Assembly: GCF_002288225.1 (NCBI RefSeq) | Contig: NZ_CP016777.1 | Location: forward strand, 806,001-870,000 | Direction of reading: 5' to 3' | DNA from: Candidatus Planktophila dulcis | GTDB lineage: Bacteria; Actinomycetota; Actinomycetes; Nanopelagicales; Nanopelagicaceae | Length of the DNA: 64,000 bases | In this document: positions 11,643-14,064 of the stretch, piece after piece | Layout of the letters: each line of letters begins with the position of its first letter | How positions within the stretch are numbered: position 1 is the stretch's first letter | Translations under genes and position numbers: made by a program | The notes under the pieces: model-generated | The model's input: the letters and a program-made list of their open reading frames with translations, nothing else | Told to the model about the DNA's origin: nothing | The model's database searches: none

Positions 11643-12243
11643 GTAGTTTGGGTGCGTTTTTAAGCACCATCCATGAACCGTATGCGGTTGCGATAAAGAG
11701 TGGGTAACCCATAGCCAAGTTCACTGTTCCAAGTAAATTGACATTTCCACTGCGATAAATTGGATACTGCACAGCGATACGGGTAAAGAACATTGCAACC
11801 CATAACCAGCTTGCAAGTATGTATGCACGCTTTCGCTCAGGATGATTTCGCCATTTGAGGTTCTCTCCCAAGATTGGCCCCAGCATCAGACCTAGGATTG
11901 GCCACCCAGCGAGGTTTGCCACAAGATAGAGCGTGCCGTAACCAAGGTTGGTTAGCAGCTTTGGAATGTAGAGATCACTCGCATTTCCTGTGCGGTTCGC
12001 AAACCAAGCGCAGATGAGCACGCCAATAAACCCACTGATTGCATGTTGGATGGTGTCGCGGCGAGCTAATCGAAAGATTGTAAGAATCGCAGAGATTGCA
12101 ATGGAGGCAAAGAGTGCGCTATTGAGTTGATCGGTTACATTGAAAACAACAAGAAAGATAACGGCTGGAATTCCAGAGTCGATGAGACCTTTCTTACCAC
12201 CGAAGGCAGCTAGAACTTTGTCGCGATCTTCATGTTGTGTCAT
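11629..12243 (-). CDS. DUF3159 family membrane protein
   Basis: 204 residues with four to five hydrophobic helices after an N-terminal charged segment (EDRDKVLAAFGGKKGLIDSGIPAVIF, typical of DUF3159). The function of the family is unknown. It lies last in an operon with dut and a thioesterase (dut stop and this ATG overlap by 4 bp), the same order seen in other actinobacteria. An acidic/basic loop, ENLKWRNHPERKRAYILAS, sits between predicted helices. I cannot assign a function. Confidence 0.8.
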   Translation of the reverse strand: MTQHEDRDKVLAAFGGKKGLIDSGIPAVIFLVVFNVTDQLNSALFASIAISAILTIFRLARRDTIQHAISGFIGVLICAWFANRTGNASDLYIPKLLTNLGYGTLYLVANLAGWPILGLMLGPILGENLKWRNHPERKRAYILASWLWVAMFFTRIAVQYPIYRSGNVNLLGTVNLAMGYPLFIATAYGSWMVLKNAPKLPTEQ

Positions 12244-12683
12244 TTGCGCCCCGTTGATCCAAAGCCACCAGTGCCTCGACCAGAACCTGGCAACTCATCT
12301 ACTTCGACAAATTGCGCACGCTCAACTTTTTGAAAGACTAATTGTGCGATGCGATCTCCACGTTTAAAGGTGACGCTCTCTTTAGGATCGTGATTGATCA
12401 TGATGCATTGAAGTTCCCCGCGAAAGCCTGCATCCACCGTGCCTGGCGCATTGACCATGGTGACCCCATGCTTAATGGCAAGTCCCGAACGGGGATGAAC
12501 CAGTGCCACATATCCATCAGGAAGTGCGATGGATATACCTGTTGGGACTAGTGCGCGCTCACCAGGCGCTAACGTGATGTCGATGCGAGAGACGATATCC
12601 GCCCCTGCATCTCCGCCCTTTGAATACTGAGGAATCGGCAAATCTGGATCTAGTCGCTTAATGAGAACTTGGAAATCGCTCAT
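12240..12683 (-). CDS. dut: dUTP diphosphatase
   Basis: Hydrolyses dUTP to dUMP and diphosphate, keeping uracil out of DNA and feeding thymidylate synthesis (thyX is at 55223). At 147 residues it is the usual trimeric size. The five motifs are visible: AGADIVSR (1), PRSGLAIKHG (2), NAPGTVDAGFRGEL (3), RGDRIAQLVFQ (4) and the glycine-rich GSGRGTGGFGSTG (5) that closes over the neighbouring active site. The ATG overlaps the stop of the upstream thioesterase gene by 4 bp. Confidence 0.95.
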   Translation of the reverse strand: MSDFQVLIKRLDPDLPIPQYSKGGDAGADIVSRIDITLAPGERALVPTGISIALPDGYVALVHPRSGLAIKHGVTMVNAPGTVDAGFRGELQCIMINHDPKESVTFKRGDRIAQLVFQKVERAQFVEVDELPGSGRGTGGFGSTGRK

Positions 12684-13264
12684 GGGTTGATATCAAACTC
12701 TGGATCGACAAAGGAGAGAAGTTCAGGGTTCTTACGCAGCGCTTCCATATATTCAGCTGGAGCATTTTCCAAGAAGTGTTTCATTGGAACAATCACAAAG
12801 AGAGATGCAGCACGGACTGCAACCTCACCATCAGGACCACCTAAGCGTCCTTCTGCCTCTGAATACACCTTGCGGTTAACCTGACCTGTAATGCGCGCTG
12901 TGATGTATAGCTTTGTCCCAATAGGAACAGGCTTAAGAAAATCAGTTTCAAGACGAGCAGTAACAGCAGGTGCGCGAAGCAACCACATCAACTTTCCAAG
13001 TGCTTCATCAAAAGCGAGAGAAAGCAATCCACCGTGTGCCAAGCCTGGCGCACCTTGATGATTTTCAGTAACAACAAACTCTGCAGTGATATCTGCGCCC
13101 TGTCCGACATGAGCAACAAGGTGCAAACCTGTTGGATGTAGTTCTCCGCAACCAAAACAATGTTTAAAGTGAGATGGAATCTGTGATCCGGTAGTTGGTG
13201 AGAGTGGATGGCGTTCTGGAATCTGCGCTCCGTCAGGAGGCGTAGTACTTGCAACGCGACTCAT
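12680..13264 (-). CDS. PaaI-family hot-dog thioesterase
   Basis: 194 residues with one hot-dog domain: HFKHCFGCGELHPTGLHL at about residues 32-50, then GAPGLAHGGLLSLAFDEALG with the conserved HGG loop, and FLKPVPIGTKLYITARI. Such enzymes hydrolyse acyl-CoA thioesters; the substrate is unknown. It heads the operon with dut and DUF3159. A TAACCT -10 box lies 6 nt before the ATG, in a 42-bp spacer shared with the divergent DUF3093 gene. Confidence 0.82.
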   Translation of the reverse strand: MSRVASTTPPDGAQIPERHPLSPTTGSQIPSHFKHCFGCGELHPTGLHLVAHVGQGADITAEFVVTENHQGAPGLAHGGLLSLAFDEALGKLMWLLRAPAVTARLETDFLKPVPIGTKLYITARITGQVNRKVYSEAEGRLGGPDGEVAVRAASLFVIVPMKHFLENAPAEYMEALRKNPELLSFVDPEFDINP

Positions 13265-13270
13265 GTGGAT

Positions 13271-13299
13271 AGGTTACTTGATGATTTGCACGATAACCT
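13271..13299. promoter_or_regulatory. Interlocked divergent leaderless promoters (PaaI / DUF3093)
   Basis: AGGTTA at 13271-13276 is TAACCT on the minus strand, 6 nt before the thioesterase ATG (13264). TAACCT at 13294-13299 is on the plus strand, 7 nt before the DUF3093 GTG (13307). Exactly 17 bp separate the two hexamers, so the -10 box of each promoter occupies the -35 position of the other. The two genes would compete for polymerase. Confidence 0.5.
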
Positions 13300-13306
13300 A
13301 GCGCTC

Positions 13307-13744
13307 GTGCCCTTTAAAGAAGTGATACGTCCCCCACTGTGGCTTCTCGCCTTCATCTATTTCCTTTTTCTTTCCCTCGTTATTGCAATATGGGCGGCTT
13401 TTGATAATCAGAGCGCCTTCATCGCTTGGCTCGCTGCAACCATAGGAATAGTTGGCATCGCTTTCTCCGCACGTTCAGAGATAACTGTTGATGAGAAGGA
13501 GTTGCGCATTGGACGCGCTCACATCGAGTTGAAATACCTCGACAAAGTTGAGCTGCTGACTAAGGATGAAATGAGACTTCTTCGGACCCGAGATGCAGAT
13601 CCTGCTGCTTATCTAGCGATTAAGTTCTGGATGTCAACGGGTGTGAAAATCACGCTTAAGGATCAACGTGATTCCACTCCGTATTGGTTGGTAAGTTCTA
13701 GAAAATCTAAAGAACTTACGAGCACTCTTTACAAATTGCTTTAG
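13307..13744 (+). CDS. DUF3093 family membrane protein
   Basis: 145 residues from the GTG at 13307, which follows a TAACCT -10 box by 7 nt. The frame stays open upstream to 13208, but that would lie inside the divergent thioesterase gene. Two adjacent transmembrane helices (about residues 8-58) precede a compact soluble domain (ITVDEKELRIGRAHIELKYLDKVELL..) resembling a PH-like fold. DUF3093 beside dut and DUF4193 is a conserved actinobacterial arrangement; function unknown. The 3' end overlaps the DUF4193 gene by 29 bp, tail to tail. Confidence 0.75.
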   Translation: MPFKEVIRPPLWLLAFIYFLFLSLVIAIWAAFDNQSAFIAWLAATIGIVGIAFSARSEITVDEKELRIGRAHIELKYLDKVELLTKDEMRLLRTRDADPAAYLAIKFWMSTGVKITLKDQRDSTPYWLVSSRKSKELTSTLYKLL

Positions 13745-14012
13745 CGCCTTCGCCCTTAGCAAGTTGTGTGATGTGATGAATCAAGAAACAACGTGAACAG
13801 GTGAATTCATCTAACTGAACTGGAACAACTCGAACTGCTAGTTGCTCACCCGAAAGGTCTGCTCCTGGAAGTTCAAGATTCTCTGCAGCTTCTGCCTCAT
13901 CAACATCAATCTGTCCTGATTGTGCATCAACGCGCTTAGCTTTGAGTTCTTCTAACGATTCTTCGTGAAGCTCCTCGTCGGTCTTTCTGGGTGTGTCGTA
14001 ATCTGTTGCCAC
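13716..14012 (-). CDS. DUF4193 family protein
   Basis: 98 residues from the GTG at 14012. MATDYDTPRKTDEE...EESLEELKAKR is the family's conserved opening. The acidic middle (VDEAEAAENLELPGADLSGEQLAVRVVPVQ) leads to a C-terminal zinc-ribbon-like CSRCFLIHH...CKEC with two CxxC pairs. Another GTG lies 9 nt upstream, but the family start and a GAGGTG ribosome site at the right distance favour 14012. Function unknown; conserved in actinobacteria next to dut and DUF3093. Confidence 0.82.
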   Translation of the reverse strand: MATDYDTPRKTDEELHEESLEELKAKRVDAQSGQIDVDEAEAAENLELPGADLSGEQLAVRVVPVQLDEFTCSRCFLIHHITQLAKGEGAKAICKECS

Positions 14013-14064
14013 TGCTATCACCTCGCTTCCATAGATCTCTTATGAGCGGGTGAAGTTACCCGAC

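Follow-up and report, generated by a model that had tools for sequence, protein, structure and literature searches.

The 42-bp spacer between the divergent thioesterase and DUF3093 genes of Candidatus Planktophila dulcis most probably contains two independent leaderless promoters, which lie back to back, are driven by their -10 boxes and are read by the housekeeping sigma factor (estimated probability about 0.85). The window, i.e. the whole analyzed stretch of 64,000 nucleotides, is part of a genome of 1.348 Mb that consists of a single contig. The features in and around the spacer (13265-13306; all positions refer to the window) are:

12240..12683, minus strand: dUTPase gene (dut), 4-bp overlap with the end of the thioesterase gene
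12680..13264, minus strand: 4HBT-fold thioesterase gene, predicted leaderless (from the translation; PF03061 4HBT, E 1.8e-8)
13271..13276, minus strand: thioesterase -10 box TAACCT (AGGTTA on the plus strand), 6 nt from the ATG, preceded by AAG
13277..13293, no strand: 17-bp gap between the boxes, length differs among relatives
13294..13299, plus strand: DUF3093 -10 box TAACCT, 7 nt from the GTG, preceded by CGA (CGN-TANNNT form)
13307..13744, plus strand: DUF3093 gene, predicted leaderless, GTG at 13307 is the predicted +1 (PF11292, E 7.4e-30)

The spacer was read directly from the sequence and agrees with the initial annotation in its coordinates, the length of 42 bp, the two boxes, the 17-bp gap and the distances of 6 and 7 nt. 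The ATG of the thioesterase gene begins at 13264 on the minus strand, which is the predicted +1 of this gene, and residue 1 was aligned in 55 of 55 same-genus loci. The protein is 100% identical to actinobacterial MAG proteins and 88% identical to that of Candidatus Planktophila versatilis; dut and the thioesterase gene probably belong to one operon. Inspection of the window spacer revealed no Shine-Dalgarno site. The 3′-end of the DUF3093 gene overlaps that of a convergent DUF4193 gene (13716-14021) by 29 bp. The true start codon of DUF4193 is probably the GTG at 14012, which follows the Shine-Dalgarno site GAGGTG, rather than the GTG at 14021.

For the analysis of conservation, DUF3093 was found in 83 of 100 relatives, including 55 of the 61 genomes of the genus (the genome of the window counted), and in all 55 genus genomes with a DUF3093 match the thioesterase gene divergently adjoins it. 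After the addition of named loci, 135 of 150 loci were analyzable; many of these represent the same genome reached twice, and all counts refer to the 96 distinct spacers, one of which (L056) is from another family. The 15 loci left out comprise L085, which is without DUF3093, and 14 loci of other families, in which no thioesterase was found, or its alignment began only after residue 3, or that of DUF3093 only after residue 10.

In all 96 distinct spacers, a TANNNT box was found on both sides, with the T1, A2 and T6 of each box kept 6 to 8 nt from its own start codon. The offset of the minus strand (thioesterase) box was 6 nt in 77, 7 nt in 18 and 8 nt in one of the spacers, and the corresponding numbers for the plus strand (DUF3093) box were 29, 66 and one. 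When the same spacers were scanned at single offsets, each side had 0 to 3 matches per offset for 0-5 and 9-17. At the minus-side offsets 18 and 19, 11 and 14 matches were counted in these scans.

Since both boxes are kept in every distinct spacer, the two promoters are probably real, as far as can be judged from the sequence. This supports the earlier proposal that the minimal spacer carries a promoter for each direction. The comparison across relatives that the initial annotation had suggested gave a divided result, since both hexamers were conserved (96 of 96) and the 17-bp spacing was found to vary. A loose 4-mer test identified Shine-Dalgarno-like motifs upstream in 7 of the 96 spacers on the plus side and in 2 of 96 on the minus side.

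In the other-family loci that hold the thioesterase gene (L056, L057, L059, L061, L062, L064 and L065), its box was TAGGGT in seven of seven cases, 6-8 nt from a possible start, and a DUF3093 box was found in one of the seven. From this difference, seen in few loci, the thioesterase-side box may be older than the DUF3093-side box. TAGGGT appears to be an unusually fixed leaderless promoter in these thioesterase loci.

Two DUF3093 frames, G060:C75 and G030:C34, were found to have one internal stop each (TAG in one; TAA, with two pieces, in the other) and are pseudogenes or assembly errors. The contigs L075, L094, L106, L124, L127 and L143 are titled Bifidobacterium breve and bear Planktophila-like genes; these MAG labels look wrong.

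The frequency of the leaderless signature was determined in a sample of 1.264 Mb, consisting of the window, 20 stretches of G000 and ten stretches each of G014, G015, G040 and G052. In this sample 1,237 genes were called by a simple codon-usage caller, with nearby in-frame starts allowed. The TANNNT motif was located at offset 6 in 171 and at offset 7 in 78 of these genes, compared to 3-23 genes at each of the other offsets between 0 and 39. The reversed motif was also elevated at offset 6 (61), which is expected as some boxes fit both motifs.

Among 147 divergent pairs from five genomes, a box was detected on the minus side of 74, on the plus side of 76 and on both sides of 43, and four control offset pairs gave 1-8 boxes per side and 0-1 on both. 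Divergent genes with a box each are frequent among these tiny freshwater bacteria, and the arrangement does not amount to a special switch.

Due to the distance of 6-7 nt between box and start codon, both mRNAs should be leaderless, an implication that was absent from the initial annotation, and both genes most likely start transcription on their own start codon. RNA polymerase would recognize and melt the TANNNT box and initiate right on the first nucleotide of the start codon, leaving no 5′ leader, with one promoter serving the thioesterase-dut operon and the other one DUF3093. The shortness of the spacer would be what remains once a streamlined genome dispenses with a leader, a Shine-Dalgarno site and a strong −35 region, and the exact length of 17 bp would be inherited within lineages rather than demanded. 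The spacer thus illustrates how a streamlined actinobacterium can pack divergent genes without these three elements.

The gap between the two boxes was −2 bp in 4, 5 bp in 25, 7 bp in 12, 15 bp in 3, 16 bp in 13 and 17 bp in 21 of the 96 spacers. Longer gaps of 29 bp (9 spacers), 30 bp (1), 32 bp (1), 33 bp (3), 44 bp (1), 51 bp (1) and 54 bp (2) were also found. The fixed distance of 17 bp claimed previously does not hold in the relatives, and such variation had been named in the initial annotation as refuting its reading. Exactly 17 bp was found in 21 of 96 spacers within a range of −2 to 54 bp; a gap of 15-17 bp occurs in 37 spacers, and the other 59 keep both boxes too.

A quick tree built from both proteins, with long branches flagged, requires 11 changes between the gap classes. 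Gaps of 15-17 bp are present on most major branches of this tree and may be ancestral, and their spread could reflect some preference. The gap of 5 bp is confined to one group. With just 11 class changes, the orthologous series is too small to infer preferred values.

In the genome sample, the gaps of the 43 two-box pairs ranged from −7 to 153 bp, and the most common value was −2 (5 of 43; two of these five are orthologous). A gap of 17 bp was found in 2 of 43 pairs, namely thioesterase/DUF3093 and one pair in G052 at the EPSP synthase/SRAP place. Pattern searches in 62 genus genomes, with the two offsets set to 6 and 7 or to 7 and 6 and totals summed by hand from the tables, resulted in 27 matches for gap 17 (control 32), 31 for gap 12 (control 19) and 9 for gap 22 (control 41). 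By these counts 17 bp is not a preferred distance, and the exact value occurs no more often than by chance.

Helical phasing, hinted at by the steps of 5, 16-17 and 29 bp, was rejected, since no period of 10, 10.5, 11 or 12 bp was detected in the 42 sample gaps of up to 80 bp (p 0.67-0.95; Rayleigh p 0.95 at 10.5 bp; the gap of 153 bp was dropped from the 43). Selection on a length specific to 17 bp was rejected as well: four orthologous leaderless divergent pairs between the sampled genomes also keep their gaps exactly (20, 4, −2 and 26 bp), which makes a stable length the usual case and no peculiarity of the 17-bp gap. In two more matched pairs, with the genes on opposite sides, the gaps were unequal (70/41 and 45/36 bp).

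At the upper end of the range, the long spacers of L005, L017, L088 and L095 (gap 44-54 bp) show partial direct repeats by eye and may have grown by short duplications. At the lower end, the thioesterase and DUF3093 boxes of L125, L132 and L134 overlap by 2 bp (AGAGTAACCT).

RNA polymerase covers about −40 to +20 of a promoter. For the predicted starts at 13264 and 13307, the estimated footprints overlap at approximately 13267-13304, a region that includes both boxes. From this geometry the two complexes should not be bound together, and they likely exclude each other physically at the spacer. In 40 of the 43 leaderless divergent pairs the start codons are 80 bp or less apart, and most of these pairs would overlap by the same measure. 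Unless evidence to the contrary emerges, the exclusion is therefore regarded as a side effect of compactness, and a regulatory use of it is not supported.

It is unlikely that the spacer is a conserved competition device, in which the choice of direction by the polymerase balances the two genes and the gap changes (−2, 5-7, 15-17, 29-33 and 44-54 bp) tune the competition, including the passage to a bidirectional promoter with a shared element. The orthologous spacers represent a natural distance series from −2 to 54 bp in which both boxes are always kept. With this series, the distance at which divergent polymerases start competing could be measured on natural sequences.

Positions beside the boxes are partly conserved in the 15-17 class, where the consensus CTTGATGA adjoins the thioesterase box. 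If a spacer-specific regulator bound this block and set the firing direction of the two promoters, the partial conservation, which extends to the 7-bp class, and the divergent gene order kept in all 55 genus genomes with a DUF3093 match would be accounted for. However, the block is missing from the 25 gap-5 spacers, which hold TCCGA only, and there is no adjacent regulator gene; such a regulator is quite unlikely.

The initial annotation had described each box as the −35 element of the partner promoter. At the spacing of 17 bp, AGGTTA matches TTGACA in 2 of 6 positions in both directions, a level that does not sustain this claim. The best TTGACA match at spacings of 15-19 bp around the window promoters was 3 of 6, and the gap (13277..13293) holds no −35-like hexamer for either side. 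Likewise, a scan of 12900-13700 with the sigma-70 consensus revealed no promoter-like site, which is expected since there is no −35.

For 312 leaderless promoters of the genome sample, the mean −35 match at spacing 17 was 1.96, compared to 1.35-1.75 at the other scanned spacings, and 9.6% of these promoters match at 4 of 6 or more positions at spacing 17, slightly above other spacings. A weak −35 thus exists in the genus and its contacts are not wholly absent; the −10 box of the partner is not its source here.

A switch dedicated to mutual exclusion, with an exact spacing that lets each −10 box double as the −35 of its partner, would explain the exact geometry in the window and could draw on the spread of the 15-17 class (37 of 96 relatives, on most branches). 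It is nevertheless very unlikely, given the 2 of 6 match, the 59 of 96 spacers that lie outside 15-17 bp and retain both boxes, and the lack of enrichment of the 17-bp gap (2 of 43 pairs; 27 matches versus 32 in the control of 62 genomes). An operator for a dimeric regulator in place of two promoters, formed by the inverted repeat TAGGTTA-N15-TAACCTA with its perfect 7-bp arms in the window, is highly improbable and was rejected together with the earlier notion of a symmetric element, since no more than 11 of the 96 spacers carry two identical boxes, and since the boxes keep T1, A2 and T6 relative to their own start codons and are separated by a gap that varies by more than 50 bp.

Two back-to-back leaderless promoters have parallels in M. 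tuberculosis, for which Cortes et al. (2013; PMC3898074) reported leaderless mRNAs with a TANNNT −10 motif and without a −35 motif, and called closely juxtaposed divergent promoters common. PrpD/Rv1129c is described there as a divergent pair of which both mRNAs are leaderless. The promoters reported in that study share with the present ones the TANNNT −10 box, the start codon at the start site and the lack of a conserved −35 region, and a CGN before the box is found both there and on the DUF3093 side here (PMC3898074). They differ in that M. tuberculosis belongs to another genus and its starts were mapped, whereas those described here are predicted. Both features, TANNNT promoters of leaderless genes and divergent promoters lying close together, are already published for M. 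tuberculosis (PMC3898074); the spacer itself is ordinary. At the level of titles and abstracts, no paper on the thioesterase/DUF3093 spacer was found in the open-licence literature.

The bidirectional promoters described by Warman et al. (2026; PMC12825309) share one −10 element, which the start sites flank or fall within, and these sites are most often 18 bp apart, with 10 and 23 bp also being common. According to this report, the basal activity of five tested E. coli promoters with a shared element was too low for competition, which appeared once one direction was substantially activated. Common to these promoters and the spacer are the divergent mRNAs from one short stretch and an expected competition of polymerases. 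In contrast to the single −10 element of that study (PMC12825309), the boxes here are separate, 17 bp apart, and the predicted starts are 43 bp apart, so the designation as a compact symmetric bidirectional promoter does not apply in the sense used there. In the three relatives with a gap of −2, the predicted starts lie 23-24 bp from each other, and this arrangement would be consistent with the shared-element geometry of PMC12825309.

The second pair with a gap of 17 bp is also present in the genome of the window, in the spacer between EPSP synthase and SRAP (L211 1238-1285, corresponding to G000:C1:191137-191184). Its two TANNNT boxes are located 17 bp apart and 6 and 7 nt from the ATG codons, and this geometry is unchanged in G052, G040 and G018. 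The box geometry is the same as that of thioesterase/DUF3093, whereas the genes and the spacer sequence are unrelated. Further EPSP synthase/SRAP-like matches, by sequence only, were found in G019, G022, G051 and G060.
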